Assembly: GCA_026125665.1 (NCBI GenBank)
Contig: JAHCKS010000025.1
Location: 1-58,119, forward strand
Length of the DNA: 58,119 bases
DNA from: Rubrivivax sp.
Lineage (GTDB): Bacteria > Pseudomonadota > Gammaproteobacteria > Burkholderiales > Burkholderiaceae_C
Direction: 5' to 3'
Below are positions 1,978 to 23,441 of this stretch, in pieces. Below the pieces are notes generated by a model that was not told the DNA's origin, did no database searches, and worked only from the letters and a program-made list of their open reading frames with translations. The position numbers and the translations under genes were made by a program. Each line of letters starts with the position of its first letter. Positions within the stretch are counted from its first letter, which is position 1.

Positions 1978-1995
1978 TTGTCATGCCGCTGACAT
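1978..1995 (+). promoter_or_regulatory. Candidate Pho box upstream of sixA
   Basis: TTGTCAT-GCCG-CTGACAT: two 7-bp half-sites, each one mismatch from CTGTCAT, start exactly 11 bp apart, as in PhoB boxes. The site ends 72 bp before the sixA GTG and lies in the 158-bp glmM-sixA gap. The call is by eye only. Confidence 0.55.
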
Positions 1996-2067
1996 GGGCG
2001 GGCGGCACAGTCCGCGGTCCTGCCCCGCGCCGGCCGGCGGCCGTGCTCGCCTCGACCCCCCGAACCC

Positions 2068-2529
2068 GTGGACCTCATCCTCTGGCGCCATGCCGAAGCA
2101 GCCGAGCCGGGCGAAGGCGATGACGACCTCGCACGCCCGCTCACGGCCAAGGGCGAGCGCCACGCCGAGCGCGTGGCGGCCTGGCTCGGCCGGCACCTGG
2201 CCGCCACGACGCGCGTGCTGGTGAGTCCGGCCGTGCGCGCGCAGCAGACGGCGCGCGCGCTGGACCGCAAGTTCAAGACCGTCGAGGAGCTCGTGCCCAG
2301 CGGCACGGCACAGGGCCTGCTGCACGCGGCGCGCTGGCCCGAAGGCCGCGAGCCGGCGCTGGTGGTCGGCCACCAGCCCGCACTCGGCATGACGGTGGCC
2401 TGGCTGATGAGCGGCTCGACTCAGCCGTGGACCATCCGCAAGGGCGGTGTGGTGTGGCTGCGCGGCCGCGAGCGCGACGGCGCGCTGCAGGTCGTGCTGC
2501 ACGCGGCGTTGACGCCCGAGATGCTGTAG
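2068..2529 (+). CDS. sixA: Phosphohistidine phosphatase SixA
   Basis: This is a 153-residue histidine-phosphatase-superfamily protein, close to the usual SixA length of about 160. It opens DLILWRHAEAAEPG, with the phospho-accepting histidine in the RHA (usual RHG) motif, and has the second catalytic histidine in VVGHQPALG. SixA dephosphorylates phosphohistidine on proteins, classically HPt domains or the nitrogen-related phosphotransferase system. The start is GTG at 2068, placed directly before the conserved beta strand; no upstream ATG fits. It follows glmM by 158 bp, which contain a candidate Pho box, and converges on the GT4 gene. That placement suggests a link to phosphate control, which is inference. 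Confidence 0.88.
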   Translation: MDLILWRHAEAAEPGEGDDDLARPLTAKGERHAERVAAWLGRHLAATTRVLVSPAVRAQQTARALDRKFKTVEELVPSGTAQGLLHAARWPEGREPALVVGHQPALGMTVAWLMSGSTQPWTIRKGGVVWLRGRERDGALQVVLHAALTPEML

Positions 2530-2587
2530 GCGCGCCCTCGCGGACGCGCCGCTCCGGGCGCGCCGCAGCGCACCGCGCCCGGCAAGG

Positions 2588-3880
2588 TCAGGAACGCGCC
2601 GCCGACCGCGCTGCGCCTGCGCTCGAGGGCGGCAGCGGCGTGGCCTCGGGGCGTGCGCCGCCCGGGCCGGGGTGGCCGCGCATCGCCTGCCGCAGCATCG
2701 CCTCGAACGCATCGATCACGCCGTCCCAGCCCTGGGCGGTGGCGCGCCGGCGAGCGCGCACGCCCATCGCGGCGCGCGTCGCGGTGCTCGACGCCAGCGC
2801 CACGGCGCTGCGCTCGAACTGCTGGGGGTTGTCGCAGGCGACGACAACGCCACTTTGCCCCGGCTCGATGAGCTGGGCCGCTGCGGCGTGGTCGAAGGCG
2901 AGCACCGCCAGGCCGCTGGCCATGGCTTCGGCGACGACGTTGCCGAAGGTCTCGGTGAGGCTCGGGAAGAGGAAGAGGTCGGCGCTGGCGTAGTGCACCG
3001 CGAGGTCCGCACCGTGGCGCGGCCCGGCGAAGTGCGCCTGCGGCAGCTCGGCCTGCAGCCACCCGCGCAGCGGCCCGTCGCCGACGAGCACGAGGCGCGC
3101 CCGGGGCACGGCGGCGGCCACGGCACGGCAGGAGCGCACGAGCAGGGCGAGGTTCTTCTCCGCGGCGAGCCGGCCGACGTACAGCAGCACCGGTTCGTCC
3201 GCTCCGGCGCCCCACGTGCGGCGCAGCGCGTCGCTGCGCATGGCCGGATCGAAGCGGCCCGTGTCGACGCCGCGCGAAACGACGGTCAGGCGTTGGAACC
3301 CGTCGGCACGGAGCCGGCGCCGCAGCGCCTCGGTCGGCACCGTCGTCGCCGCCGTGCGGTTGTGGAAGGCACGCAGGTAGGCCAGCAGCGGCCGCTGCAA
3401 CCAGGCCATGCCGTAGTGGCTGGCGTAGGCGTGGAAGTTGGTGCGGAAGTCCGAGGTCACCGGCAGCGCGAGAAGCCGCGCCGCGCGCACCGCCGAGAAC
3501 CCCAGCGGCCCCTCGGTGGCCACGTGCACGACATCGGGCCGGTCGGCACTCCACAGCCGGCGCAGCCGCGCACCCGCGGGCAGGCCGAGCCGCAGGTGCG
3601 GGTACTGCGGGATCGGCCAGCCGGCGACGAGCGTCTCGGCCGCAGCGGTGTCGCCGCCCCCGTCCCGTGTTTCGTGGTCCTGTCGCGGGCGGACGAGGCT
3701 GACGCGGTGGCCGCGCGCGCGCAGCCCGCCCACCATGCGTGCCAGCGTCATCGACACTCCGTTCACCTCGGGCGGGTAGGTCTCGGTCACGACGGCCACG
3801 TGCAAGGCGTGTCCCGGTGGCGGGACAGGTGCCCGGGGCTCCGGCGCGCCGGGGCGCGGCATCTCTGTCGACGACATCAC
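2588..3880 (-). CDS. GT4-family glycosyltransferase, candidate diacylglycerol glycosyltransferase
   Basis: This 430-residue GT-B glycosyltransferase resembles the GT4 family that includes bacterial alpha-mannosyl/glucosyl and Agt-like lipid glycosyltransferases. After a proline-rich start comes the acceptor-domain strand AVVTETYPPEVNGVSMTLA. The donor domain has LLYVGRLAAEKNL and the EX7E signature in SLTETFGNVVAEAMASG. No signal peptide or clear membrane segment is seen, so it is probably cytoplasmic or peripheral. It sits in the phosphate island and diverges from the membrane protein at 4072, with CTGTCAT-like half-sites between them. Lipid glycosylation in place of phospholipid is inferred from context; an exopolysaccharide or LPS role is the alternative. 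A second Met at residue 7 could be the real start. Confidence 0.8.
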   Translation of the reverse strand: MMSSTEMPRPGAPEPRAPVPPPGHALHVAVVTETYPPEVNGVSMTLARMVGGLRARGHRVSLVRPRQDHETRDGGGDTAAAETLVAGWPIPQYPHLRLGLPAGARLRRLWSADRPDVVHVATEGPLGFSAVRAARLLALPVTSDFRTNFHAYASHYGMAWLQRPLLAYLRAFHNRTAATTVPTEALRRRLRADGFQRLTVVSRGVDTGRFDPAMRSDALRRTWGAGADEPVLLYVGRLAAEKNLALLVRSCRAVAAAVPRARLVLVGDGPLRGWLQAELPQAHFAGPRHGADLAVHYASADLFLFPSLTETFGNVVAEAMASGLAVLAFDHAAAAQLIEPGQSGVVVACDNPQQFERSAVALASSTATRAAMGVRARRRATAQGWDGVIDAFEAMLRQAMRGHPGPGGARPEATPLPPSSAGAARSAARS

Positions 3881-3902
3881 TCCGGCATGGTGAGCGCTGC
3901 CG

Positions 3903-3920
3903 GCGACGTTTCGATGACAG
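3903..3920 (-). promoter_or_regulatory. Weak Pho-box-like site upstream of GT4 gene
   Basis: Read on the minus strand it is CTGTCAT-CGAA-ACGTCGC. The first half-site is perfect, while the second matches only about four of seven positions. It ends 22 bp before the annotated GT4 start, which is close unless the true start is downstream. Confidence 0.3.
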
Positions 3921-3947
3921 CCGCCGGGAGCGATGCGCCCGCGTGCG

Positions 3948-3965
3948 CTGTCACGGGCTCTTCAT
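3948..3965 (+). promoter_or_regulatory. Candidate Pho box upstream of membrane protein at 4072
   Basis: CTGTCAC-GGGC-TCTTCAT has half-sites 11 bp apart, the first strong and the second degenerate. A further lone CTGTCAC lies at 4002-4008. Both are in the 191-bp divergent region between the GT4 gene and the membrane protein. Confidence 0.45.
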
Positions 3966-4071
3966 CTGTGCCGCCGATCATCCCGCCGCCGCAGCGCGGC
4001 GCTGTCACGCAACCGAGATCGCGGCGCCACGAGGCGGTCATGCCCTTCCTTCATCCCTGCGAGGACGCTAC

Positions 4072-4677
4072 ATGAACCGATTCCTGCGCGAGCTCGAAGT
4101 GCAGCGGTGGGACGACCACCGCTACTACCACCAGAGCCGCATCAACCAGTGCCTGCACCTCGTCAGCGCCATCAGCTTCGTCGTCGCGTACGCGCTGCTG
4201 TTCGTCGACCCGGCGATGGCCGCCGTCGTCGGCTGGTGCGTGTCGATGGTGACGCGGCAAAGCGGCCACTTCTTCTTCGAGCCGCGTGGCTTCGACCGCG
4301 TCAACCGCGTCAGCGACGAGTACAAGGAAGCGGTCAAGGTCGGCTACAACATCCGCCGCAAGATCGTGCTGATGGCGGTGTGGGCCGGCGCGCCGCTCGT
4401 GCTGTGGCTCGAGCCTTCGCTGTTCGGGCTCATCGAGCCGGCCACCACCTTCGACGGCCTGGTGCACGACACCGGCATCGCCTGGCTGGCGCTGGCCGTC
4501 GCGGGGCTCGCCTTCCGCGTCGCGCAGCTGGTGGTGACGAAGGGGCCGTTCACGGGCTTCGTGTGGCTGGCCAAGATCCTCACCGACCCGTTCCACGACA
4601 TCGGGCTGTACTGGCGCTCGCCGCTGGCGCTGCTGCGCGGCGAGCTGTTCGACCCGATGACGCACGTGCGCCATTGA
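4072..4677 (+). CDS. Multi-pass membrane protein, possibly Mpo1/DUF962-like
   Basis: A 201-residue protein with an N-terminal soluble stretch (RYYHQSRINQCLHLVSA) and about four hydrophobic segments: residues about 25-42, 46-58, 98-115 and 137-155. An N-x-x-x-H at the first segment and the GHFFFEP block after the second are reminiscent of the DUF962/Mpo1 family of fatty-acid-modifying membrane enzymes, but I regard that match as tentative. The ATG at 4072 follows GAGGA with good spacing; the frame is open for 330 nt upstream without coding character. Candidate Pho sites precede it, which fits a role in lipid remodelling. Function is not known. Confidence 0.75.
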   Translation: MNRFLRELEVQRWDDHRYYHQSRINQCLHLVSAISFVVAYALLFVDPAMAAVVGWCVSMVTRQSGHFFFEPRGFDRVNRVSDEYKEAVKVGYNIRRKIVLMAVWAGAPLVLWLEPSLFGLIEPATTFDGLVHDTGIAWLALAVAGLAFRVAQLVVTKGPFTGFVWLAKILTDPFHDIGLYWRSPLALLRGELFDPMTHVRH

Positions 4678-4689
4678 GCGGCCAGGGCA

Positions 4690-4717
4690 CGGGGCGTGGC
4701 GCTCTTGGCGCGCCCCG
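4690..4717. terminator. Hairpin between convergent genes
   Basis: CGGGGCG at 4690-4696 pairs with CGCCCCG at 4711-4717 in the short gap between the membrane protein and the convergent aminotransferase. There is no T-tract, so intrinsic termination is uncertain. Confidence 0.25.
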
Positions 4718-4749
4718 CTGCCGGCACGCTGCCGTTGGCGACGTGGGGC

Positions 4750-6483
4750 TCAGGTGCCGACCGGGCCGGCTTCGCCGCCTTCCGCTCCGGCCGGCCCGCG
4801 CCGGTCGCCTGACCAGGACGGCAGCCGGTGACGCACCATCTCGCCGAGCAGGCGCCAGCGGAGGTGCTTCGCGAATGCTGCCGTGTCACGCGCCGGGTCG
4901 CGCCACCACCAGCCGTCGGCGCGCATCTGCAGTGCCGCGGCGACGAAACGCTCGCACACCTCGTCGAAGTCGGCCTCGTCGAAGTGCAGTCCGAAGATCA
5001 GCCGCCCCGTGCCCACCCAGCTCAGCGCCAGCCCCTGTGCGCGCAGGTAGAACTGCAGCAGCCAGTGGTAGCGCGAAGGCTGCGTGTAGCTCACCGTCCA
5101 GATCGTGCCGAGGTGGGCCACGCGCACCGGCAGCCCGGCGTGCTCGAGCCGGTGGTTGAGCTCCGCCGCATGGGCGTTCCAGCGCTCGTCGGCGCCTTCG
5201 TAGAGCGCGCGCACCTGCGGCGTGTCGAGCCGGCGCAGGAACACGTTCATCGCCGCCATCACGTACGGGTGGGCGTTGAAGGTGCCGCGCGCGAAGCACA
5301 GGTCGGCCGGGCGGTCTTCACGGTAGCGGCGCATCAGCGCCTCGCGCCCGCACACCACGCCCACGGGCAGGCCGCCGCCGAGCGTCTTGCCGTAGGTCAC
5401 GAGGTCGGCGCTCACGCCGAAGGCCTCCTGCGCGCCGCCCGGCGCCAGGCGGAAGCCGACGAACACCTCGTCGAAGATCAGCACGATGCCGCGCTCGCTG
5501 CACACCTCGCGCAGCCGGCGCAGCCATCCCTTGTAGGCGGCGCGGTCGAAGCCGGCGACAGCGCGAGCGCCGACGAGCGAGGAGTCGGCCGGCGCGTTGC
5601 GGTTCGGGTGCAGCGCCTGCAGCGGATTGACGAGCACGCAGGCGATGTCGCCGCGCGTTCGCAGCACCTGCAGGCTGCGCTCGTCCATGTCCTTCAGCGT
5701 GTAGGTCTCGCGCGGCGGCATCGGGTTGCCGGGGCCGGGCTGCACGTCCTCCCACCAGCCGTGGTAGGCGCCGGCAAAGCGCACCAGGTACTTCCGGCCG
5801 GTGTGGTAGCGCGCCAGCCGCACGGCCTGCATCACCGCCTCGGTGCCGGACATGTGGAACGACACGGCTTCGTGGCCCGAGATGCGCTGCAGCCGCCGCA
5901 CGTTGTCGGCCACGCAGGGGTGGTAGGCGCCGAGCACGGGCCCGAGCGGCTCGGCCATGCGCTGCGCCTCGGCGATGCACTGCTTGTAGAAGTCGACGCC
6001 GAAGAGGTTCACGCCGTACGAGCCGGTGAGGTCGATGAGGCGATTGCCGTCGAGGTCCTCGACGGTGACGCCGCTCGCGGCGCGCACGAAGGCGCCCACC
6101 GACAGGTGGCGAGCGAGCTGCGGGCTGAACTGGAACGGCACGCGGTAGCGGCCGGTCATCGCCAGGTCGGGCAGCGCGCCGCGCATCTCGCGCGTCAGCG
6201 CCAGCGTCTGCGGAAATCGTTCGGCGTAGAGGTCGGCCAGCGCACGCAGGCCGGCGCGACGCGCCTCGCGCACGTCCGCCGGCGCACCGTCGGCGGCGAA
6301 GAACGCGGCCTCGTCGTAGGCGTAGCCCGGCACCTGCCGCGCCAGCCACTTGGCGATGCGCGAGTGCCCGGCGAGCGAGCGGTGCTTGGCGCGCGAGAGC
6401 GCGAGGCGCCGCCGGGCTGCGCCGTAGCCGAGGCCGAGCAGCGCTGCCGCGGCGAGCGTCGTGAGAGTCAACGTGATCTGCAT
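4750..6483 (-). CDS. Membrane-anchored class III (GSAM-like) aminotransferase
   Basis: A 577-residue PLP-dependent fold-type I aminotransferase, about 100-150 residues longer than ordinary family members. Residues 1-22 form a hydrophobic segment (ITLTLTTLAAAALLGLGYGA) that looks like an N-in membrane anchor, followed by a basic patch. The core shows SFHMSGTEAVMQAVRLAR (phosphate loop region), IFDEVFVGFR with Asp338, and the Schiff-base lysine in LVTYGKTLGGGLPVGVV at Lys366. It resembles glutamate-1-semialdehyde aminomutase-like enzymes, not heme-pathway HemL itself. The ATG at 6483 begins the anchor; longer reading upstream runs into the divergent psd gene. It lies in the phosphate island, 34 bp from psd. 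An amino-lipid or head-group precursor reaction is speculative; the substrate is unknown. Confidence 0.8.
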   Translation of the reverse strand: MQITLTLTTLAAAALLGLGYGAARRRLALSRAKHRSLAGHSRIAKWLARQVPGYAYDEAAFFAADGAPADVREARRAGLRALADLYAERFPQTLALTREMRGALPDLAMTGRYRVPFQFSPQLARHLSVGAFVRAASGVTVEDLDGNRLIDLTGSYGVNLFGVDFYKQCIAEAQRMAEPLGPVLGAYHPCVADNVRRLQRISGHEAVSFHMSGTEAVMQAVRLARYHTGRKYLVRFAGAYHGWWEDVQPGPGNPMPPRETYTLKDMDERSLQVLRTRGDIACVLVNPLQALHPNRNAPADSSLVGARAVAGFDRAAYKGWLRRLREVCSERGIVLIFDEVFVGFRLAPGGAQEAFGVSADLVTYGKTLGGGLPVGVVCGREALMRRYREDRPADLCFARGTFNAHPYVMAAMNVFLRRLDTPQVRALYEGADERWNAHAAELNHRLEHAGLPVRVAHLGTIWTVSYTQPSRYHWLLQFYLRAQGLALSWVGTGRLIFGLHFDEADFDEVCERFVAAALQMRADGWWWRDPARDTAAFAKHLRWRLLGEMVRHRLPSWSGDRRGPAGAEGGEAGPVGT

Positions 6484-6517
6484 GACTGCGGGTCTACCCG
6501 CGGCCCGTGACAACGCC

Positions 6518-7441
6518 ATGAAAACCGGTCTTCCCAGCTCCGTGAACCCGCTGCGGCAGCTCGCTGCCGTCGAGAGCCTCAACTTCGCGCTGACCAACCG
6601 CGTGCCCCGCGTCGCTCTGACGCGGCTGATGGGCTGGTACAGCGGCCTGAGGAGCCCGGCGCTGACACGCCTGTCGCTCGCCGTCTGGCGCCTGTTCACC
6701 GACCTCGACCTGAGCGAGGCCGAGCCCAGGCGCTACACGAGCCTGCAGGAGGTGTTCACGCGTCGGCTGCGCCCCGGCATGCGCACCGTGGACGCCGACC
6801 CGGCCGTGCTGGCGAGCCCCTGCGACGCCATCGTCGGCGCCTGCGGCCGCGTCGAACAGGGCCGGCTCTTCCAGGCCAAGGGGTCGAGCTACCGCCTCGA
6901 CGAACTGCTGCGCGGCGACGCCGCCCGGCCGCTGCCCGAGGAAGGCAGCCTCTACGTGACGCTGCGGCTCACGTCGGCGATGTACCACCGCTTCCACGCG
7001 CCGCACGACCTCGTCGTCGAGCACGTGAGCTACGTCAGCGGCGACGCCTTCAACGTCAATCCGGCGGCGCTGGCGCGCGTGCCGGGCCTGTTCACGCGCA
7101 ACGAGCGTGCCGTGCTGCGCGCCACGCTGCGCGTGCCCGGGGGCGGCGCCGCGGACGGCGCGCGCCTCCTGCTCGTGCCGGTGGCGGCCATCCTGGTGGC
7201 GAGCATCCGGCTGCACTGCATCGACGTGAAGCTGCACCTGCGCCACCGCGAGCCCAACGAGTGGCGCTGCGACGCCGCCCATGCCAAGGGCGACGAGATG
7301 GGCTGGTTCGAGCACGGCTCGACGATCATCGTCTTCGCGCCGCCCGGGTTCGATCTTGCGCCCGGCATCGCGCCTGGGCAGCGGCTGCGCATGGGCCAGC
7401 CGCTGATGAGGCTGCCGGGCCGTCACGAAACTGGAACGTGA
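6518..7441 (+). CDS. Phosphatidylserine decarboxylase-family proenzyme
   Basis: A 307-residue PSD homologue. PSD makes phosphatidylethanolamine from phosphatidylserine at the inner membrane, after self-cleavage at a serine that becomes a pyruvoyl group. Visible are SPCDAIVGACGRV (family SPADG-like Asp103), MYHRFHAP with His157/His160, and the cleavage motif WFEHGSTIIVF with Ser268. The residue before GST is His where LGST or MGST is usual. The start ATG at 6518 was chosen for its family-like N-terminus; it leaves 34 bp to the divergent aminotransferase. It heads a run with the GT28 and ugd genes, so it may be a specialised second PSD and not the housekeeping psd, which in Burkholderiales usually sits near pssA. 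Substrate is therefore uncertain. Confidence 0.87.
   Translation: MKTGLPSSVNPLRQLAAVESLNFALTNRVPRVALTRLMGWYSGLRSPALTRLSLAVWRLFTDLDLSEAEPRRYTSLQEVFTRRLRPGMRTVDADPAVLASPCDAIVGACGRVEQGRLFQAKGSSYRLDELLRGDAARPLPEEGSLYVTLRLTSAMYHRFHAPHDLVVEHVSYVSGDAFNVNPAALARVPGLFTRNERAVLRATLRVPGGGAADGARLLLVPVAAILVASIRLHCIDVKLHLRHREPNEWRCDAAHAKGDEMGWFEHGSTIIVFAPPGFDLAPGIAPGQRLRMGQPLMRLPGRHETGT
7420..7437 (+). promoter_or_regulatory. Weak Pho-box-like site at end of psd
   Basis: CCGTCAC-GAAA-CTGGAAC has the 11-bp spacing and a Pho-like A-rich spacer, but each half-site deviates from CTGTCAT (the second at two or three positions). It lies inside the last codons of psd, 47 bp before the GT28 start, and could be chance. 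Confidence 0.25.
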
Positions 7442-7484
7442 GCATCACGCCGGCGTCATCGGCGGTGGCGAGCATGCCGAGCCG

Positions 7485-8720
7485 ATGCAGCCGACATCCC
7501 CCGCCGCACCGAAGGTCGATCTCGTCTACTTCAACGCCGGCGGCGGCCACCGGGCCGCCGCCTGGGCGCTGGCCGATGCCATTGCCGCGCAAGGCTGGCC
7601 GTGGCAGGTGCGGCGCGTCAACCTCTCCGAGGTGCTGGACCCGGCCGACCGTTTCCGCCGCGTCACCGGCATCGCGCCCGAGGACCTCTACAACTTCCGC
7701 CTCGCGCGCGGCTGGACGCTGGGCCTGCGCCAGGAACTGCGCGTGCTGCAGGCGGCGATCCGCGCCGCGCACCGGCCGCTCGTGCGGCGGCTGGCCGAGC
7801 ACTGGGCCACGACCGAACCCGATCTCGTCGTCTCGCTGATCCCGAACTTCAATCGTGCGCTGGGCGAGTCGCTGGCACTCGCCTGCCCGGGCGTGCCTTT
7901 CGTCACCGTGCTGACCGACCTCGCGGACCTGCCGCCGCACTTCTGGATCGAGCCCGGCCTGCAGCAGCACGTGGTGTGCGGCACCGCCGAAGCCGTGGCG
8001 CAGGCCGAGCAGGCCGGGTGCGGCCGGCAGCGCATCTGGCGCGTGGCCGGCATGCTGCTGCGCCAGGCCTTCCATGCCGCGCAGCCGGCGGACAAGCGCG
8101 CCGGGCGCGAGCGGCTCGGCTTGCTGCCTAACGCCCCGACGGCCGTGGTCATGTACGGCGGCTACGGCTCGGCCGAGATGCTGGAGGTGGCGCGCCGGCT
8201 GCCCGGCGTGCAGCTGGTCCTGATGTGCGGCCGCAACGCCGCGCTCGCGCGGCGGCTGCGCGCCGTCGGCGGCACCGCGGCGGAACTGCCGCGCCTCGTG
8301 CTCGAGTTCACCGAGGACGTGCCGCGCTACATGGGCGTGGCCGACTTTTTCATCGGCAAGCCCGGCCCCGGGTGCCTGAGCGAGGCGCTGCACCTCGGGC
8401 TGCCCGTCATCACGTTCGGCAACGCCTGGACGATGCCCCAGGAGCGCTTCAACGTGCGCTGGGTGCAGGCGCAAGGCGCCGGGCTCGCCGTGCGCTCGCC
8501 GCGCCAGTTGCCCGCCGCGGTGGCCACGCTGCGGGCCGACCTGCCGCGCTTCGCCGCGCGCGCGGCGGCGCTCGAAAGCCGCGCCGCCTTCGAGGTGCCG
8601 CGCATTCTCGAGCACCTGCTGCACGACTCGGCCGCCACCGTGCGCGACCTGCAGCCGCTGCGCCCGCCGGCCCGGCCGGCCGAGCCCCGGCCGCCCGCCT
8701 TCCAGGAGGAACTGCGATGA
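7485..8720 (+). CDS. MGDG-synthase-like GT28 glycosyltransferase (candidate diacylglycerol glycosyltransferase)
   Basis: A 411-residue GT-B enzyme with the N-terminal signature of MGDG synthases and MurG-like GT28 enzymes: VYFNAGGGHRAAAWALA, with GGGH at residues 19-22. The nucleotide-sugar domain contains AVVMYGGYGSAEML and FFIGKPGPGCLSEALHLGLPVI. These enzymes transfer a sugar from a UDP-sugar to diacylglycerol at the cytoplasmic membrane face. The C-terminal 30 residues are Pro/Arg-rich. The start is 43 nt after psd, and its stop overlaps the ugd start by 4 nt (ATGA), so it is probably translationally coupled to UDP-glucose dehydrogenase. The natural inference is that it uses UDP-glucuronate or UDP-glucose; donor and acceptor are unproven. 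Confidence 0.85.
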   Translation: MQPTSPAAPKVDLVYFNAGGGHRAAAWALADAIAAQGWPWQVRRVNLSEVLDPADRFRRVTGIAPEDLYNFRLARGWTLGLRQELRVLQAAIRAAHRPLVRRLAEHWATTEPDLVVSLIPNFNRALGESLALACPGVPFVTVLTDLADLPPHFWIEPGLQQHVVCGTAEAVAQAEQAGCGRQRIWRVAGMLLRQAFHAAQPADKRAGRERLGLLPNAPTAVVMYGGYGSAEMLEVARRLPGVQLVLMCGRNAALARRLRAVGGTAAELPRLVLEFTEDVPRYMGVADFFIGKPGPGCLSEALHLGLPVITFGNAWTMPQERFNVRWVQAQGAGLAVRSPRQLPAAVATLRADLPRFAARAAALESRAAFEVPRILEHLLHDSAATVRDLQPLRPPARPAEPRPPAFQEELR

Positions 8721-10129: not shown

Positions 10130-10242
10130 CCGCCGCCGTCGCGCTGCGCCCGCGGCGCGTGGGCGCGCCGCTCCAGGTCGTCCAGGCCGTCCAGGCCGCG
10201 CGCTATGCTGCATGGCATGACGCCACGACCGCACGGTGCCGC

Positions 10243-11730: not shown

Positions 11731-11770
11731 ACGGCGGGTCCGCTCGTTGCTTGCCGCATCCGCTGCCCGC

Positions 11771-13390
11771 ATGGAGATCGAACTGAAGCTGGCGCTCGAA
11801 GCGGCCGGCGCGCCGGCCCTTCGTGCGCATCCGCTGCTCGCGCACTACCGGCTGCGGCCGCCGCGCACGGCCACGGTGGAGAACCGCTACTTCGACACGC
11901 CGGCGCTCGATCTGTGGCGCCGCGGCGGCATCGAGCTGCGGCTGCGGCGCGACGGGCGCCGGCATCTGCAGACCGTGAAGCGCCTGCCCGACCCGCAGGC
12001 GCGCGGGGCCGGCGGGCTGCACCGCCTCGACGAGTGGGAAGCGCCGCTCGCGGGCAACGCCCTCGACCTGCCGGCGATGCTGGCGGCGATGCCGGCCGGG
12101 GCCGATGACGTCGTGGCCGCGTTGCGCACCGCCGCGCAGGCCCGGCTGGCCGAACGCGTCGTGACGCGCTATCGCCGCACCACGTGGCTGCTGCGCTCGG
12201 CGCTCGGCGACGAGGTCGAGCTGGTGCTCGATGTCGGCGAGGTGCGCGCCGGCACGTCCAGCCTGCCGCTGTGCGAGGTGGAGCTCGAGCTGAAGGCGGG
12301 GCACGAGCGCGCGCTGTTCGAGCTGGCATCCGCGCTGCAGGCCGGCGCACCGGGCCACGGCATCGCCGGCCTGCCGCTGCGCCCCGACGCGCGCGGCAAG
12401 GCCGCACGCGGCTTCGCGCTGCTGGCCGGCGAGGCGCTGCCGCCGCCGCGCGTGGCGCGGCGCATCCCGCTGCCGCGCCGCGCCGGCAGCCTGCAGGCGT
12501 TGCGCCTGCTCGTCGACGAGTGCCTCGCGCACGTGCAGGCCAACGAGGCGGGGGTGCTGCAGACCGACGAGCCCGAGTACGTTCACCAGATGCGCGTGGG
12601 GCTGCGCCGCCTGCGGGCCGCGCTCGGCCTGTTCAAGGCCATCGCCCCGGCGCCGCCGGCCGTGCTCGAGGATCTGCGCTGGTCGGCCGAGCGGCTGGGC
12701 GTGGCGCGTGATGCCGAGGTGCTGGCCACCGAGACGCTGGCGCGCATTCCGCCGCCACCCCCGTCCGCCCGGATGCCCTGGCAGCCGCTGCGCGAAGCCG
12801 CACAGGCGAACGCGGCCCGCGCGCGGCGCGAGGCGATCGAGGCGGTTCGATCGTCGCGCCACGTCGGCTGGCAGCTCGCGCTGCTGGCGTGGGTGAGCCA
12901 GCTCGAGGCGGCCGAGCCCGCGGGCCGGGGCCGACGAGGGAAACCGGGGCTGCACACGGCGGCTCCCGTGGGTGGCGTGTCGTCGCCGGCGAGTGGCCAC
13001 CCGGCGCTCGGCGTGCACGCGCGGGCGATGCTGAAGCGGCTGCGCCGGCGGCTCGTGCGCCGCGGCCGGGAGCTGCCGCGCAGCGCGGCCACCGCGAGGC
13101 ACGAGGCGCGCATTGCCGCCAAGAAATTGCGTTATGCCACCGAGATGCTCGGCCCCACGGTGCCCGGCTGGGGTGCGCGGCGTCGCGTGCGCGCCCTGGC
13201 CGCGCTGCAGGAGCAGCTCGGCGTGCTGAACGACACCGATGTGGCCAGCGCCGCGCTGGCCGGCCTGGCCGCGGAGGACGCGACGCTCGCCCCGGCGGTG
13301 GCCTACGCCCAGGGCTGGTTGTCGGCGGACGCCGGCCCGCGCATCGACCGGCTCGGCCCGCTCTGGCGGCAGGCGCGGCGCGCGCTCTGA
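11771..13390 (+). CDS. CYTH-CHAD protein (inorganic triphosphatase / polyphosphate-binding)
   Basis: A 539-residue two-domain protein. Residues 1-210 are a CYTH (triphosphate tunnel) domain with the metal-binding EXEXK motif at the very start (MEIELKL), then ENRYFDTPALDLW and repeated basic/acidic strands. Residues about 240-539 are a CHAD helical domain with histidine/arginine-rich helices (EYVHQMRVGLRRLRAALG, HEARIAAKKLRYATEML). CYTH enzymes hydrolyse triphosphate or related substrates, and CHAD domains bind polyphosphate. A low-complexity insert lies near residues 375-410. Position after ppx supports a polyphosphate role. The ATG at 11771 is fixed by the EXEXK motif. Confidence 0.92.
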   Translation: MEIELKLALEAAGAPALRAHPLLAHYRLRPPRTATVENRYFDTPALDLWRRGGIELRLRRDGRRHLQTVKRLPDPQARGAGGLHRLDEWEAPLAGNALDLPAMLAAMPAGADDVVAALRTAAQARLAERVVTRYRRTTWLLRSALGDEVELVLDVGEVRAGTSSLPLCEVELELKAGHERALFELASALQAGAPGHGIAGLPLRPDARGKAARGFALLAGEALPPPRVARRIPLPRRAGSLQALRLLVDECLAHVQANEAGVLQTDEPEYVHQMRVGLRRLRAALGLFKAIAPAPPAVLEDLRWSAERLGVARDAEVLATETLARIPPPPPSARMPWQPLREAAQANAARARREAIEAVRSSRHVGWQLALLAWVSQLEAAEPAGRGRRGKPGLHTAAPVGGVSSPASGHPALGVHARAMLKRLRRRLVRRGRELPRSAATARHEARIAAKKLRYATEMLGPTVPGWGARRRVRALAALQEQLGVLNDTDVASAALAGLAAEDATLAPAVAYAQGWLSADAGPRIDRLGPLWRQARRAL

Positions 13391-13523
13391 CGGCCGGGGC
13401 AGAGCCGGCCACGCCGGCAGAGGCCGACGCGACCTGCCCGCGGTGGCCGCCGGCCGGGCGTGACATGCCGGTCGCCGGGCCGGCCCAGCGTCCGGGCAGC
13501 GGCTGCCCCACCGCCACCGCGGC

Positions 13524-15770
13524 TCAGGTCCCGACGCGCCCGCCGTCGTTCTTGGTCACCATGACCGTGCACGCGCGCGGCCGCGCGTTGGCGCCGCCGG
13601 CCCCGTAGCCGGCGTTGCCCGGGAAGTGGCTCGTGAACTTCGTCGGTTCGCCGATGTTGGCGAACGACGTCTCCTCGCCGGGGTGCTGCACGTTGAAGAA
13701 CATCACCTTGCCGTCGGGCGTCTCGCAAAGGCCGGTGATCTCCTGGTCGACCGGGCCGACGGCGAAGCGCTTCAGCGTCGTCGCCGTCTGCTTCTTGCCC
13801 ACCCGCGTGGCCACCGTGTTGCCGCCGCCGTAGTCGATGGTCAGCGGGCCGCCGTCGCCCACGGTGCCCGGCACGGCGGCCAGCAGCATGCAGTTCGTGA
13901 CGTCGGTGTAGGCGCCATCGTCGGTCTGCACCCACAAGAGGCCGGTGCCCGGCGTGTAGACGAGGCCGTCGGGGCTCGAGAGGTCGTTGTCTGCCGTGAG
14001 GCCGGACAGGTTGATGACGTTGCCCGGCGCGCCGGCCTCGGCGCCGAAGAGGTAGATGTCCCAGGTGAAGGCGGTGGCGCCGGGCTCGCCGCCATCCTCC
14101 TTCATGCGCACGATGTGGCCGTTCGGGTTGCCGCTCTGTACCGTGGCCGCGCCGCGGATGTCGGTGTAGACGCGCGGGTTCGCGGCGTCGGGGTTGAGCT
14201 GCGAGCCCGTCACCGCGCCGAGCCGCCGGTTGCTGTTGTTCGTCAGCGTGAAGTAGACCTCGCCGCTGCCGGGCACGGCACACCACTCGGGGCGATCCAT
14301 CTTCGTCGCGCCCACCGCGTCACCGGCCAGGCGGGCGTGCATCAGCACGTCGCCGTCGTCGGCGAAGGCGTAGGTGGCGTAGCCGGCGACGGTGGGGTTG
14401 GCCAGCGACAGCTCGATCCACTGGCCGGTGCCGTCGGCGTTGAACTTCGCGACGTAGAGCTTGCCGCTGTCGAGGTACTTGTCGCCGGTGGCCACGCGGT
14501 CGGGCGCGGTGGCGTCGCTGGCCACCCAGTTCTGCGTCGACACGAACTTATAGATGTACTCGTTGCGCGCGTCGTCGCCCAGGTACACGGCAAGCGGCTT
14601 GCCGGCCACCGGCTTGCCGAAGGCGGCGTTCTCGTGCGCGAAGCGGCCGAGCGCGGTGCGCTTCTTGACCACGCTCGTGGCGCTGTACGGGTCGATCTCG
14701 GTCATGTAGCCCTGGCCGTTGATCTCGTGGCGGTAGTCGTCGGCGGCGGTGGCGCCGGTGACGCTGGTGTTCCAGCGCGCGTACTTGTCGTCGGCGCCGG
14801 AGGTCTCCCAGCCGTAGCGGCTGGCGGCCGCCGCGGTGGCCGTGACGTTGCGGCCGTAGCGGGCCAGCGCCGTGTTCTCCTTGGCCGTGCGCAGCGCCTG
14901 GTCGCCGGCGGCGCGGAAGAAGTAGCCGACCCAGTTCTCCTCGCCGGTGAGCAGCGTGCCCCACGGCGTCTTGCCGGTGCCGCAGTTGTTGTTGGTGCCG
15001 CGCGTGCGCGTGGCGTCGGGGGAGAACTTCGTCACCAGCAACGGGTGGCCGCGCAGCGGGCCCGAGATCTCGATCGGCGTGGCCGCGGTGACGCGGCGGT
15101 TGAACGGCGAGTTCTGCACCACCGCGAACCTGCCCGCCGTCTTGGCGATCTCGACGATGGTGACGCCGTGGCAGTCGACCTCGATGTCGGTCTCGGCGGC
15201 CGGGCGCGGGTTCGGCGTCGGGCCGTTGGCGTGCAGGAAGAGCTGGTTGATGTACTCGTTGTTGATGCCCAGCAACGCGCGGTCGTTGCCGTTGGCATCG
15301 GGCGCGCCGGCGGCGGACAGGCCGAAGTACTCCATGCCGTCGTGGTTGTCGCCGACGCGGCGGTCGAAGCCGCTGTCGGTGCCGTCGTTCCTGTACGCCG
15401 TGACGCCGGCGGCGATCGGGTCGCCGACGGCCAGCAGCACGGTGGCGGTGTAGCCGGCCGGCACCGTCATCTTGTCCTCGAGGGACTTGGCGACGGCGGC
15501 GAAGCCGAGCAGGGTTTCGGCCGGCGCGGCCGGAGCCGGGGCGGGCGCCGGGTCGTCGTCCCCGCCACCGCAGGACGCCACGCCGAGGCTCGCGAAACCG
15601 CCCAGCAGCGCCGTGGCCGCACCGCCGACGCCGCCGCGCAGCAGGCTGCGGCGGCTCAAGCGGGCTTCGACGATCGACTCGAAGGTCGGGTTGGCGGAGG
15701 TGTTGGAGTTCTCGTCGTTGTAGTCGAGGCCGAAGCCGGGCTGCGGGGGAAGGTCACGGGGCTGGTTCAT
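13524..15770 (-). CDS. phoX: PhoX-family alkaline phosphatase
   Basis: PhoX enzymes are calcium/iron-dependent phosphatases exported by the Tat system to release phosphate from organic esters under starvation. The 748-residue protein has a Tat motif (SRRSLL, Arg40-Arg41) followed by a hydrophobic stretch and then ASLGVASCGGGDDD. Cys67 there could also be a lipobox cysteine, so this may be a Tat lipoprotein. DUF839/PhoX blocks include NHDGMEYFGL, LLGINNEYIN, GTLLTGEENWVGYF, RFAHENAAF and YVKRPEWCAVP-like KMDRPEWCAVPGSGEVYFTLTNN segments, plus the C-terminal FNVQHPGE. A candidate Pho box lies 46 bp upstream, overlapping the stop codon of the plcP gene before it. It converges with the CYTH/CHAD gene. 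Confidence 0.93.
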   Translation of the reverse strand: MNQPRDLPPQPGFGLDYNDENSNTSANPTFESIVEARLSRRSLLRGGVGGAATALLGGFASLGVASCGGGDDDPAPAPAPAAPAETLLGFAAVAKSLEDKMTVPAGYTATVLLAVGDPIAAGVTAYRNDGTDSGFDRRVGDNHDGMEYFGLSAAGAPDANGNDRALLGINNEYINQLFLHANGPTPNPRPAAETDIEVDCHGVTIVEIAKTAGRFAVVQNSPFNRRVTAATPIEISGPLRGHPLLVTKFSPDATRTRGTNNNCGTGKTPWGTLLTGEENWVGYFFRAAGDQALRTAKENTALARYGRNVTATAAAASRYGWETSGADDKYARWNTSVTGATAADDYRHEINGQGYMTEIDPYSATSVVKKRTALGRFAHENAAFGKPVAGKPLAVYLGDDARNEYIYKFVSTQNWVASDATAPDRVATGDKYLDSGKLYVAKFNADGTGQWIELSLANPTVAGYATYAFADDGDVLMHARLAGDAVGATKMDRPEWCAVPGSGEVYFTLTNNSNRRLGAVTGSQLNPDAANPRVYTDIRGAATVQSGNPNGHIVRMKEDGGEPGATAFTWDIYLFGAEAGAPGNVINLSGLTADNDLSSPDGLVYTPGTGLLWVQTDDGAYTDVTNCMLLAAVPGTVGDGGPLTIDYGGGNTVATRVGKKQTATTLKRFAVGPVDQEITGLCETPDGKVMFFNVQHPGEETSFANIGEPTKFTSHFPGNAGYGAGGANARPRACTVMVTKNDGGRVGT

Positions 15771-15816
15771 CGTGCTCGCTCCTGGTTGAACAACCCGACG
15801 AGTGTTCGGGTGTCAC

Positions 15817-15834
15817 ATGAACGAGCCGTGTCAG
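15817..15834 (-). promoter_or_regulatory. Candidate Pho box for phoX
   Basis: On the minus strand it reads CTGACAC-GGCT-CGTTCAT: half-sites 11 bp apart, matching CTGTCAY at six and five positions. It overlaps the plcP stop codon (15831-15833) and ends 46 bp before the phoX ATG, giving phoX its own control besides readthrough from plcP. Confidence 0.5.
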
Positions 15835-16796
15835 TCGCGTGGCACCGCCATGACCGGCGCAGGTGCCGGTTCGTGCGCCGGCTCGGCCTGCGGTGCGCGC
15901 CCGGCCGCGAACACCGGTGGCGCGGCCAGCGCGCCGCGGTCGACGATCTCCAGCCGCCCGTCGTGGTGCTCGACGATGGCGGTCAGGCTCTCGACCCAGT
16001 CGCCGTCGTTGCAGTACAGCACGCCCTCGACCAGGCGGATCTCGGCATGGTGGATGTGGCCGCAGACGACGCCGTCGGCGCCGCGTTTCCTCGCCTCGCG
16101 CGCCACGGCCACCTCGAAGTCGTTGACGTAGCTCACCGCGCGCTTGACCTTGAACTTCAGGTAGCGCGACAGACTCCAGTAAGGCAACCCCAGCCGCGCG
16201 CGCGCGACGTTCAGGAAGCGGTTCACCTTCAGCGTGAACTCGTAGGCCCGGTCGCCCAGGGTGGCGAGCCAGCGCGCGCACTGGATGACGCCGTCGAAGT
16301 AGTCGCCGTGCGTGATCCACAGCCGCCGGCCGTCGGCGGTGACGTGCATCGCGTCCTCGACCACGTCGATGCCGCCGAAGTTGTGCGCCACGTAGCGCCG
16401 CGCGAACTCGTCGTGGTTGCCCGGGACGAAGACGACGCGCGTGCCCTTGCGCGCCTTGCGCATCAGCTTCTGCACGACGTCGTTGTGCAACTGCGGCCAG
16501 TACCACGAGCGCCTGAGCTGCCAGCCGTCGACGATGTCGCCAACCAGGTACAGCGTGTCGCACTCGACCTCGCGCAGGAAGTCCAGCAGCGCGCCCGCCT
16601 GGCAGCCGGGCGTACCCAGGTGCAGGTCGGAGATGAAGACGGTGCGCACGCGCAGCGGCGTGGCGCTGTCGGGGGCGTCGGCGCCGCGGGTGGCCTGGGC
16701 GGCTTCCGCGGCGTCGCTCGCCCGGCCGCCCTCGCGGGCCGAGGCCGCGTCGGTGGCGACGCCGGCGGCGTCGTCGAGCAGGGGCTCCGCATGCAT
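15831..16796 (-). CDS. plcP: PlcP-type metallophosphoesterase (candidate phospholipase C)
   Basis: A 321-residue calcineurin-like phosphoesterase, often labelled UDP-2,3-diacylglucosamine hydrolase. It is closest in pattern to PlcP of Sinorhizobium meliloti, which removes phosphorylated head groups from phospholipids to give diacylglycerol during phosphate starvation. Metal motifs are SDLHLGTPGCQ (Asp57, His59), LVGDIVDGW, PGNHDEF (Asn127, His128), THGDYFD and CGHIHHAEIR. The blocks RRSWYWPQLHNDVVQK and GLPYWSLSRYLKFKVKRAV are strongly PlcP-like. The first 45 residues are an Ala-rich extension. The ATG at 16796 is the only good start. A Pho box lies 47 bp upstream in the shared region with ppk2, and phoX follows 60 bp downstream. 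An LpxH-like role is the alternative. Confidence 0.82.
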   Translation of the reverse strand: MHAEPLLDDAAGVATDAASAREGGRASDAAEAAQATRGADAPDSATPLRVRTVFISDLHLGTPGCQAGALLDFLREVECDTLYLVGDIVDGWQLRRSWYWPQLHNDVVQKLMRKARKGTRVVFVPGNHDEFARRYVAHNFGGIDVVEDAMHVTADGRRLWITHGDYFDGVIQCARWLATLGDRAYEFTLKVNRFLNVARARLGLPYWSLSRYLKFKVKRAVSYVNDFEVAVAREARKRGADGVVCGHIHHAEIRLVEGVLYCNDGDWVESLTAIVEHHDGRLEIVDRGALAAPPVFAAGRAPQAEPAHEPAPAPVMAVPRD

Positions 16797-16843
16797 GGAA
16801 CCGCATGCTCGCGCGCGCAGATGACGTCGCCGTGAACACGGGC

Positions 16844-16861
16844 ACGTCACGGATCTGTCAT
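16844..16861 (+). promoter_or_regulatory. Candidate Pho box between plcP and ppk2
   Basis: ACGTCAC-GGAT-CTGTCAT: half-sites 11 bp apart, the second perfect and the first with two mismatches. It is 40 bp before the ppk2 ATG and also 47 bp from the divergent plcP start, so it may serve one or both. Confidence 0.6.
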
Positions 16862-16901
16862 CGATCGCTGGCAAGTTCCGGCGTGTGCACCAAACCATGC
16901 C

Positions 16902-17828
16902 ATGAACGACAAGCTGTCCGCCCCCGAGCACCAGGAGCTCCTGCGCCGCATCGAGCTCGACCTGCTCGACAGCTACGACGAGGAGATCGAGCTCGAGGCC
17001 GAGGACCGGGTGCCGCCCGGCCCGGGGGTCGAGGGGGGCGCACCGGTGGCGGACGGCGACTTCCGCCGCACGTACTTCCGCGAGCTCTTCCGCCTGCAGG
17101 CCGAGCTCGTGAAGGTGCAGGACTGGGTGGCCGCGACGCGGCAGAAGGTGGTCATCGTCTTCGAGGGCCGCGACGCAGCCGGCAAGGGCGGTGTCATCAA
17201 GCGCATCACGCAGCGGCTGAACCCGCGCGTGTGCCGCGTCGTCGCGCTGCCGGCGCCCAACGACCGCGAGCGCACGCAGTGGTACTTCCAGCGTTACGTC
17301 CCGCACCTGCCGGCGGCCGGCGAGATGGTGCTGTTCGACCGCAGCTGGTACAACCGCGCCGGCGTCGAGCGCGTGATGGGCTTCTGCAGCGAGGCCGACG
17401 TGGAGGAGTTCTTCCGCTCCGTGCCCGAGTTCGAGCGCATGCTCGTGCGCTCGGGCATCCGGCTCTTCAAGTACTGGTTCTCCATCACCGACGAGGAACA
17501 GCACCTGCGCTTCCTCGGGCGCATCCACGACCCGCTGAAGCAGTGGAAGTTCTCGCCGATGGACCTGGAGAGCCGCCGCCGCTGGGAGGCCTACACGAAG
17601 GCCAAGGAGGCGATGCTCGAGCGCACGCACATCGCCGAGGCGCCGTGGTGGGTGGTGCAGGCGGTGGACAAGAAGCGGGCGCGGCTGAACTGCATCGCCC
17701 ACCTGCTGTCGCTGCTGCCGTACAGCGAGGTGCCGCGGCCGACGATCGAGCTGCCGCCGCGCGAGCGGCATCCGGACTACATCCGCCGGCCGGTGCCGGC
17801 GGACATGGTGGTGCCGGAGGTCTTTTGA
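16902..17828 (+). CDS. ppk2: Polyphosphate kinase 2
   Basis: PPK2 transfers phosphate between polyphosphate and nucleotides, usually making GTP or ATP from the diphosphate. The 308-residue single-domain protein has Walker A in FEGRDAAGKGG (residues 88-97), followed by VIKRITQRLNPR, the lid/Walker B block LFDRSWYNRAGVERVMGF and QWKFSPMDLESRRRW. Length and motifs fit the one-domain class I PPK2 that acts on NDPs. An acidic linker lies at residues 24-40. A Pho box precedes it and the pst operon follows 174 bp later. Direction in vivo (synthesis or use of polyphosphate) cannot be read from sequence. Confidence 0.94.
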   Translation: MNDKLSAPEHQELLRRIELDLLDSYDEEIELEAEDRVPPGPGVEGGAPVADGDFRRTYFRELFRLQAELVKVQDWVAATRQKVVIVFEGRDAAGKGGVIKRITQRLNPRVCRVVALPAPNDRERTQWYFQRYVPHLPAAGEMVLFDRSWYNRAGVERVMGFCSEADVEEFFRSVPEFERMLVRSGIRLFKYWFSITDEEQHLRFLGRIHDPLKQWKFSPMDLESRRRWEAYTKAKEAMLERTHIAEAPWWVVQAVDKKRARLNCIAHLLSLLPYSEVPRPTIELPPRERHPDYIRRPVPADMVVPEVF

Positions 17829-17895
17829 AGGCCTGTCGCCGGGCACCGACGGCCGGCTGCCGCCGCCGGCGGGCAGCTCGCCGCGAGGGTGCGCG

Positions 17896-17913
17896 CCGTC
17901 ACGAGGGTGTCAC
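17896..17913 (+). promoter_or_regulatory. Distal Pho box of pstS promoter
   Basis: CCGTCAC-GAGG-GTGTCAC: half-sites 11 bp apart, each one or two mismatches from CTGTCAC. It is the first of two such sites before pstS. Confidence 0.65.
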
Positions 17914-17926
17914 ATGCCGGCCCGGA

Positions 17927-17944
17927 CCGTCACGGTCCTGTCAC
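17927..17944 (+). promoter_or_regulatory. Proximal Pho box of pstS promoter
   Basis: CCGTCAC-GGTC-CTGTCAC: half-sites 11 bp apart, the second perfect. It ends about 60 bp before pstS, and tandem boxes at a pst promoter are typical of strong PhoB control. Confidence 0.72.
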
Positions 17945-18005
17945 AGGGGCCGCCTACAGTGAGTTCGATCACGAACTCGTGTCCCAACCCAGCCAGGAGC
18001 CCATG

Positions 18006-18998
<993 letters not shown>

Positions 18999-19051
18999 CC
19001 CGCCCGCGAAGCGACATCAGAACCAGGCAGGGCGGCCAGCCACCTGCCTTG

Positions 19052-19087
19052 CGGCCCCGCAGCCGGGCGCGGCGCGGGGCCGTTTTT
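19052..19087 (+). terminator. Intrinsic terminator between pstS and pstC
   Basis: A 9-bp stem (CGGCCCCGC / GCGGGGCCG) is followed directly by TTTTT. It lies 53 nt after the pstS stop and 25 nt before pstC. It probably acts as a partial terminator to set a high PstS to PstCAB ratio. Confidence 0.75.
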
Positions 19088-19112
19088 CGGCCGCCCGAAG
19101 GAGGTTCCTAGA

Positions 19113-20087: not shown

Positions 20088-20118
20088 CAACGAGCGACCC
20101 CCGGGCGGAGACCTGCAC

Positions 20119-21087: not shown

Positions 21088-21108
21088 ACCGCAGAACCTG
21101 AACCGACC

Positions 21109-21900: not shown

Positions 21901-21927
21901 TCGCCACGCCTTGCGGGAGCACCAGAC

Positions 21928-22629: not shown

Positions 22630-22670
22630 GCGGCGATGAGGCGGCAGGGCAGGGCGGCGCGGGAGCAGGC

Positions 22671-23435: not shown

Positions 23436-23441
23436 GCAGAC

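Follow-up and report, generated by a model that had tools for sequence, protein, structure and literature searches.

The 58,119-nucleotide stretch of a Rubrivivax genome analysed here (contig JAHCKS010000025.1; the window) carries, between glmM and pstS, a cassette of four genes encoding a GT4 glycosyltransferase, an Mpo1-like membrane protein, a class-III aminotransferase (AT3) and a phosphatidylserine decarboxylase (PSD). This cassette is the conserved unit, not the 15-kb block in which it lies. We propose that it is controlled by PhoB and that its product, made when phosphate runs short, is a membrane lipid with an amine head and no phosphorus, a reading to which we give about an even chance of being correct. 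In the window, the GT4 gene (2588–3877, − strand; Pfam PF13692, PF13439 and PF00534) encodes an enzyme that we presume from its context to be Agt-like and to act on diacylglycerol. Beside it lie the genes for the 201-residue, multi-helix Mpo1-like protein (4072–4677, + strand), which matches PF06127 below the cut-off; for AT3 (4750–6483, − strand; PF00202), a pyridoxal-phosphate enzyme whose N-terminal helix we interpret as a membrane anchor; and for the cassette PSD (6518–7441, + strand), which matches PF02666 and TIGR00163 (148.2 bits; cut-off, 111.75).

Conservation of the cassette was assessed in three sets of loci. For the first, 300 genomes of the order were searched with the Mpo1-like protein, which was present in 35 (its own genome included) from 21 of 135 genera, and stretches were fetched from the 34 other carriers. 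The second comprised the best 80 of 577 AT3 relatives from a profile scan of named genomes, and the third 20 loci taken from a scan of 398 genomes of the phylum. Sets one and two make up the 114 loci L032–L145 (34 + 80), and all three sets 134 loci; assignments to betaproteobacteria, Alphaproteobacteria and Pseudomonadota were inferred from the titles of related records. The trio of genes for the Mpo1-like protein, AT3 and PSD is clustered in 33 of 34, 76 of 80 and 19 of 20 loci, respectively, and a GT4 gene lies within the stretch at ≥200 bits in 28 of 34 and 70 of 80 loci of the first two sets. Four exceptions to the trio (L093, L116, L128 and L135) are short stretches or reach a contig end. 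Another, L190 from genome G611, holds a second Mpo1-like copy (L190:9924–10571) that has no PSD or AT3 beside it and adjoins a gene for acetylornithine transaminase (ArgD; L190:10839–12029).

Among the 398 phylum genomes, which were drawn identically for both scans, the Mpo1-like protein was found in 25 and AT3 (E ≤ 1 × 10−100) in 25, and the genomes with trio markers span 11 of 213 genera. Twenty-four genomes share both, whereas G547 has the Mpo1-like protein only and G423 has AT3 only; these two and G637 are not among the fetched stretches. Two PF02666 matches were present in all 22 cassette genomes tested, so the cassette PSD is a second copy, as the sequence-only reading of this DNA had said. 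Record titles place the cassette in Hydrogenophaga, Roseateles, Curvibacter, Bradyrhizobium and others, with Hydrogenophaga flava NBRC 102514 and Roseateles saccharophilus DSM 654 among the cultured carriers; that reading had described a betaproteobacterial trait, but the cassette is also conserved in lineages outside the class. A search for viral copies of AT3 gave 25 pattern matches, none of them a relative.

Pho-box-like sites were scored against CTGTCAT-N4-CTGTCAT (maximum score, 24) and counted at ≥19, with expectations from first-order Markov shuffles. In loci where the flanking genes diverge, the region between the GT4 and Mpo1-like genes contains a site in 83 of 95 loci (4.3 expected) and that between the AT3 and PSD genes in 70 of 118 (3.5 expected). 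In equal-length coding stretches used as a control, 0 of 95 had a site, and 30 permuted half-site motifs gave means of 6.7 (of 95) and 3.9 (of 118). Sites also occur upstream of the alphaproteobacterial GT4 gene (8 of 11; 0.33 expected) and upstream of AT3 in the fusion-type loci described below (3 of 6; 0.40 expected). The corresponding window sites are CTGTCAC-GGGC-TCTTCAT at 3948–3965 (+ strand; 19/24), between the GT4 and Mpo1-like genes, and a site between AT3 and PSD at 6507–6524 (− strand; 20/24). Because the latter overlaps the ATG at 6518, the true start of PSD possibly lies downstream. Further sites are found at 16844, 17896 and 17927, and the five sites in the 58 kb that score ≥20/24 all fall within 1978–17944, which bears out the earlier description of the locus as rich in Pho boxes. 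On the basis of these predicted sites, PhoB control of the cassette is likely.

The cassette PSD belongs to the same family as Escherichia coli Psd (type I) and retains the catalytic Asp, His and GST self-cleavage motif, with D90 in 131 of 132 and H144 in 132 of 132 cassette PSDs and HGSTI conserved across 35 aligned rows. The cassette clade differs from E. coli Psd in existing as a second copy and at three positions (E. coli numbering): Y137R in 132 of 132 proteins, S166N in 131 of 131 (one gap) and D142M, with Met in 131 of 132. Passages of the study of the E. coli enzyme describe phosphate contacts by Tyr137 and Ser166, retention of about half the activity in Y137F and a substantially lower activity in the Y137F/S166A double mutant (PMC7952604). 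Cassette PSDs have neither of these phosphate-recognition residues and, because this site is altered, we argue that their substrate would lack a phosphate at that position.

Two comparisons place these substitutions in context. Of 20 housekeeping PSDs fetched from cassette genomes, 12 were dropped because they are of a short type that fails to align with cassette PSDs, and all eight alignable ones have Y/D/S at positions 137/142/166. We also compared 30 further loci of the phylum, kept from a longer match list. Two are cassette PSDs carrying R/M/N. L228 and L231 repeat genes already analysed above as L192 and L199. The other 28 type I PSDs have Ser166 in 28, Asp142 in 27 and Tyr137 in 21. In this sample, the combination R/M/N is diagnostic of the cassette PSD, whereas Arg137 alone is not. 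Separately, L235–L241 form another type I PSD subfamily, in which Arg137 occurs with Ser166 and Asp142 and the motif ARLCPVDYHRYHYP; all seven come from family f79.

In other lineages, the cassette has additional parts. A methyltransferase gene adjoins the Mpo1-like gene in all 14 of the fetched cassettes that we assign to Alphaproteobacteria (L139, whose title names Bradyrhizobium, and 13 loci of families f78, f85 and f88: L174, L176, L178–L183, L185, L186, L188, L189 and L191; L190, which is without the trio, was excluded). PmtA was the best NCBIfam match of the three proteins scanned, at 132 to 156 bits, below the 390-bit cut-off of NF045882. In the 22 betaproteobacterial cassette genomes, a comparable methyltransferase (>120 bits) was found only in G069, G181, G012 and G060, away from the cassette. 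In families f53 and f79, each of the six loci fetched (L172, L173, L175, L177, L184 and L187) contains a same-strand run, AT3–[domain+GT4]–PSD–Mpo1-like, in which a fusion protein of about 900 residues has GT4 at its C-terminal end. Its N-terminal domain of about 480 residues, 62–76% identical to the L187 copy, has no significant Pfam or PDB match and may be a stand-in for PlcP. A PHP phosphoesterase was rejected as its identity, as there was no PHP match in Pfam or PDB chains; the motif-like residues that we had presumed to be PHP-like have no profile support. In L173, a UDP-glucose-dehydrogenase-like gene lies next to the run.

Several partners of the cassette point to a glycosyl-diacylglycerol. 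The window encodes a PlcP-type metallophosphoesterase (15831–16796, − strand; PF00149 above the cut-off) that putatively releases diacylglycerol. Its scores are far below the LpxH cut-offs, which rules out LpxH; the name PlcP is tentative and follows the sequence-only reading, with PF00149 as its family evidence. A PlcP gene lies within the stretch at ≥200 bits in 18 of 34, 32 of 80 and 0 of 20 loci. In the genomes tested, PlcP was found in six of six Alphaproteobacteria and two of three betaproteobacteria, and none was found in five from families f53 and f79 (G640, G312, G419, G423 and G547), of which the first three have the GT4 fusion and the last two were unchecked for it. A close homologue of the GT4 sits directly beside PlcP in G422, G426, G449 and G461, and this ties the cassette-type GT4 to PlcP–Agt lipid renovation; G422, G426 and G449 are Alphaproteobacteria without the cassette GT4, in which the homologue and PlcP lie elsewhere in the genome. 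Two optional members follow PSD in the window. GT28 (7485–8720, + strand) resembles diglucosyl-diacylglycerol and monogalactosyldiacylglycerol synthases (PF04101, 24.9 bits, cut-off 22; MGDG_synth, 20.6, cut-off 25; PRK13609, 71.6 bits, cut-off 500) and occurs at ≥150 bits in 1 of 34 and 14 of 80 stretches. Ugd (8717–10129, + strand; PF03721, PF00984 and PF03720; TIGR03026, 432.8 bits) is a nucleotide-sugar (UDP-glucose) dehydrogenase. The one epimerase-like neighbour examined as a possible source of a pentose donor, in L183 with homologues in L132 (53%) and L145 (28%), has a chain named dTDP-glucose 4,6-dehydratase as its top match and epimerases next, and is read as a sugar-nucleotide supply enzyme, nothing more specific.

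These partners would also suit an ordinary PlcP–Agt glycolipid renovation system that happens to lie beside an unrelated set of genes for maintaining phosphatidylethanolamine (PE) and phosphatidylcholine (PC). GT4, GT28 and Ugd would then give glucosyl- or glucuronosyl-diacylglycerol, the second PSD would make PE from phosphatidylserine and the aminotransferase would act elsewhere. Passages of published work treat PlcP–Agt with Pho boxes as established in Pseudomonas and also describe it for Agrobacterium (PMC8528852 and PMC3972451), and the GT4 homologue beside PlcP in four genomes fits as well. We nevertheless consider this explanation unlikely: the trio markers are inherited nearly as a block (24 of the 26 genomes with either carry both), the GT4 and Mpo1-like genes share an intergenic region with a Pho box, both PSD phosphate contacts are changed and, in six loci, the GT4 fusion lies inside the trio's gene run.

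The two remaining cassette proteins were characterized by profile and model searches. AT3 has its invariant lysine inside a YGKT motif, and a long N-terminal helix (residues 2–32) and a helical region precede the catalytic fold. Its top PDB match is the aminotransferase (AMT) domain of mycosubtilin synthetase (profile E, 2.4 × 10−66; best glutamate-1-semialdehyde aminomutase, 5.5 × 10−46), which is the closest solved relative also by single sequence and by model. Assignment as glutamate-1-semialdehyde aminomutase (HemL) was rejected, with TIGR00713 at 170.2 bits against 527.3. The Mpo1-like protein has invariant His, Glu and Asp residues in a 22-row alignment (H16, H20, H29, H66, E70, D172 and others), and its predicted model has a pLDDT of 90.7. 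Passages of two publications describe yeast Mpo1 as a dioxygenase that depends on Fe(II), or as a 2-hydroxy fatty acid dioxygenase (PMC9624242 and PMC8620032).

An oxidase, an aminotransferase and a decarboxylase, joined in Alphaproteobacteria by an N-methyltransferase, would suit the conversion of a 2-hydroxy or 2-keto acid to an amino acid and then to an amine on a lipid. Because GT4, Ugd and PlcP are partners, we place a glycosyl-diacylglycerol at the start of the proposed pathway. PlcP would cut phospholipid to diacylglycerol, a role that the GT4-fused domain may take over in two lineages, and GT4 would attach a sugar, for which glucuronic acid supplied through Ugd is the likeliest candidate. 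The Mpo1-like protein, read as an Fe(II)/O2 enzyme, would oxidize the sugar to give a 2-keto-acid group, which AT3 would convert to an amino acid, an O-linked serine-like head. Decarboxylation by the cassette PSD would leave an O-linked ethanolamine-like amine and hence a PE look-alike without phosphate; in Alphaproteobacteria, the PmtA-like enzyme would N-methylate this amine to a PC look-alike. Betaproteobacteria contain mainly PE, and Alphaproteobacteria have PC; the former would stop at the amine and the latter would methylate it. We infer PhoB control, all substrates and products, and the order of the oxidation, amination and decarboxylation steps from the genes and their arrangement.

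A number of observations weigh against this pathway. Its weakest link is the Mpo1-like oxidation: PF06127 is matched with E of 7 × 10−4 and 20.1 bits, and with 23.3 bits in a second test, against a cut-off of 24, and a fold search with the model gave no PDB match better than E of 0.94. No separate gene accounts for one oxidation, from hydroxy to keto, and the nearest characterized relative of AT3 presumably aminates a β-keto thioester, not an α-keto acid. PlcP is missing from 64 of the 114 stretches L032–L145 and from all 20 of the phylum set, none was found in genome G147, and the enrichment of Pho-box sites upstream of PlcP is modest (12 of 48; 1.8 expected). Ugd at ≥300 bits lies within the stretch in 2 of 34, 14 of 80 and 1 of 20 loci, or 17 of 134 in total, and L064, a further exception to the trio, yielded no more than a fragment of AT3. 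Single permuted motifs reach as many as 49 of 95 and 34 of 118 in the Pho-box analysis. As for the decarboxylase, Arg137 is present in 7 of the 28 ordinary type I PSDs, and for E. coli PSD the activity change in S166A alone is given as not significant in the passages cited above (PMC7952604).

A more specific version of the proposal is that the cassette is the missing pathway, in bacteria, to betaine lipids of the diacylglyceryl carboxyhydroxymethylcholine (DGCC) type. GT4 would add glucuronic acid, or a pentose derived from it, to diacylglycerol released by PlcP, and the Mpo1-like dioxygenase would break the C2–C3 bond of the ring, so that the acetal carbon carries a carboxylate and the ring-oxygen side a 2-hydroxy acid. 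Once oxidation has taken place and the C6 carboxyl has left as a β-keto acid, the head would become an O-linked serine through AT3, an O-linked ethanolamine through PSD and an O-linked choline through the PmtA-like enzyme. The end product would be DAG-O-CH(COOH)-O-CH2CH2-N(CH3)3, which we take to be the structure of DGCC; betaproteobacteria without the methyltransferase would end at the ethanolamine form. The computed [M+H]+ masses of the 34:1 species are 712.572 for the ethanolamine form and 754.619 for DGCC. In this scheme, Arg137 of PSD would hold the acetal carboxylate in the place that the phosphate occupies in phosphatidylserine. We regard this version as distinctly unlikely because the oxidation step is an orphan and the sugar chemistry assigned to the Mpo1-like protein is a guess.

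Passages of publications from 2018 and 2023 call DGCC synthesis unknown and describe entry of a methionine label into the head group (PMC5835749 and PMC10685587), and the former terms the synthesis a very conspicuous gap (PMC5835749). Passages of a groundwater study call its tentatively observed DGCC unprecedented in bacteria and take it as a sign of eukaryotes, and the study's table links part of this DGCC to bacteria, Gallionellaceae among them (PMC7242380); a figure legend in a marine study names an uncharacterized betaine lipid (PMC4796936). If the DGCC version is true, the cassette would supply candidate genes for DGCC, and DGCC found in the environment would cease to mark algae alone.

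With their chemical order unchanged, the three enzyme types could instead act on the head group of a phospholipid. Oxidation by the Mpo1-like protein would turn the head-group glycerol of phosphatidylglycerol into a 2-keto acid, from which AT3 would give phosphatidylserine and PSD would give PE (and, in Alphaproteobacteria, PC), a phosphate-sparing route that bypasses CDP-diacylglycerol. Retention of the PSD catalytic residues and the PmtA-like enzyme of Alphaproteobacteria agree with it. The PSD substrate would then be ordinary phosphatidylserine, yet Arg137 (132 of 132) and Asn166 (131 of 131, one gap) replace the phosphate contacts, and the GT4, Ugd and GT28 partners go unexplained; we find this route quite improbable. 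We think it very improbable that the product is a β-amino-acyl lipid, in which AT3 would aminate a β-keto acyl chain and the Mpo1-like protein would α-oxidize the chain before the lipid is glycosylated. Two points favour this reading: among PDB entries, AT3 matches the mycosubtilin AMT domain best by both profile and model, and the name given to yeast Mpo1 is 2-hydroxy fatty acid dioxygenase. It gives no role to PSD or the PmtA-like methyltransferase, both fixed partners, and no acyl-carrier or ketosynthase gene, and no polyketide synthase or non-ribosomal peptide synthetase gene, was found among the annotated neighbour families of the cassette (20 families, one representative annotated each).

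In the sequence-only reading, the roughly 15 kb between glmM and pstS were a candidate island that had been inserted there; under that framing, the gene set would have entered this lineage as one block. Its gap estimate was close, as glmM (479–1909, + strand) and the start of pstS (17889, + strand) leave about 16 kb, and every gene it named in between is present as an open frame. Its premise that glmM is normally close to pst stands in part: of 12 genomes of the same family, seven have a PstC match 1.5–2.3 kb downstream of glmM, one has it about 12 kb off and four showed none in the fetched stretch, and none of 29 other family genomes has a PstS or PstC match less than about 1.5 kb from glmM. 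'Closely' is therefore to be read as some 2 kb, and pstS is too diverged for matching in most family genomes. Although the distance in those seven genomes (at most about 2.3 kb, against about 16 kb here) favours an insertion, we give an inserted unit hardly any credence and reject it, because the glmM–pstS interval of L066 holds the cassette together with GT28, Ugd and PlcP and gave no match to ppx, CHAD, phoX or ppk2, the cassette occurs in many other settings in the remaining loci, and the block shows no composition shift (G+C of 0.70–0.77, against 0.67–0.77 for the window), although no test aimed at mobile elements was made. L066 is the only one of the 114 loci L032–L145 in which both glmM and pst were seen beside the cassette. 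In L067, glmM is on the same side and the stretch stops short of pst; in L060, L112, L116 and L125, glmM is near the cassette in other settings, and in L115 and L123 pstS is near.

What survives of the earlier interpretation is phosphate-linked lipid remodelling, not a betaproteobacterial island. The logic of PlcP with diacylglycerol glycosyltransferases, probably under Pho control, and the link of Ugd, PSD and the aminotransferase to it are supported. The altered phosphate site of PSD, the alphaproteobacterial methyltransferase and the Mpo1-like nature of the membrane protein are new to the present analysis. The locus had also been said to look undescribed, and among the matches listed from open-licence literature, related lipid topics included, we found no account of the GT4/Mpo1-like/AT3/PSD set.

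The other genes between glmM and pstS are neighbours, not cassette parts. They are sixA (2068–2529, + strand; TIGR00249, 77.5 bits, cut-off 74.5), ppx (+ strand frame ending at 11730), a CYTH–CHAD gene missing from the earlier gene list (+ strand frame ending at 13390), the alkaline phosphatase gene phoX (13524–15770, − strand; PF05787, E of 7.7 × 10−121) and ppk2 (16902–17828, + strand). PhoX is present in 3 of 34 order loci and 11 of 80 named-genome loci. The pst and pho genes for phosphate uptake and control run through phoR (17889–24791, + strand); those before phoR were named by position and the earlier reading, without a family search, and a domain search placed PhoR domains at 23442–24791. 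Among recurrent neighbours of the cassette elsewhere is an LplT-like lysophospholipid transporter gene (36 of 114 loci by clustering, 34 by direct search), which mostly adjoins the cassette GT4 (for example, L090:13624–14919); the single member scanned exceeds NF008397 (484.7 bits, against 297). An OlsB-like ornithine N-acyltransferase gene is rarer (7 loci by clustering, 12 by direct search; for example, L090:8058–9005) and lies within about 3.3 kb of AT3 in five of the seven clustered loci.

The host genome (G000) is 6.28 Mb in size and 88.6% complete. Judged by AT3, its nearest named relatives are metagenome bins of Burkholderiales and Rubrivivax (identities of 83 and 78%), in a set that may omit the very closest ones. 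Elsewhere in the window, a gene at 28931–31009 (+ strand) places HDOD (PF08668, 52.7 bits) behind a protein-kinase-like domain (PF00069, 34.4 bits), a pairing that seemed unusual. ARAGORN called a 92-base tRNA-Ile with anticodon aat at 44869–44960 (+ strand), which may be a miscall; both the anticodon and the length are odd for a bacterial tRNA-Ile. A 557-residue open reading frame at 24816–26489 (− strand) has strong third-position G+C and a weak DUF202 match.

Replacement of membrane lipids spares phosphorus in waters and soils, and the substitutes known so far are glycolipids, diacylglyceryl trimethylhomoserine (DGTS) and acylated amino acids. A PSD clade with changed phosphate residues, combined with an aminotransferase, an oxygenase-like protein and PlcP-type renovation, would add a new route to PE and PC analogues without phosphorus. 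Among the closest counterparts of the cassette is the PlcP–Agt renovation of Sinorhizobium, Agrobacterium, SAR11 and Pseudomonas aeruginosa, with which it shares a putative PlcP-type esterase, a GT4, Ugd for UDP-glucuronate and Pho boxes. The cassette adds the Mpo1-like protein, the aminotransferase, PSD and, in Alphaproteobacteria, the methyltransferase, enzymes that go without mention in passages of publications on the known systems. AT3 resembles the AMT domain of the mycosubtilin synthetase MycA (6kfm), its nearest solved relative by sequence and model, but is free-standing and has an N-terminal helix and an extra helical region. No BtaA was seen among the annotated cassette neighbours, although no search was aimed at it. 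DGTS synthesis by BtaA and BtaB, PhoB-regulated in Sinorhizobium according to passages of a published account (PMC3972451), shares with the proposed pathway a phosphorus-free amino-acid head on diacylglycerol and N-methylation; BtaA takes the head group from S-adenosylmethionine, whereas the cassette would build its amine by an aminotransferase and a decarboxylase. DGCC, finally, is described from algae and marine organisms, with haptophytes and diatoms among its makers; it would equal the predicted end structure of the cassette if the sugar of a glycosyl-diacylglycerol is cleaved, aminated, decarboxylated and methylated.

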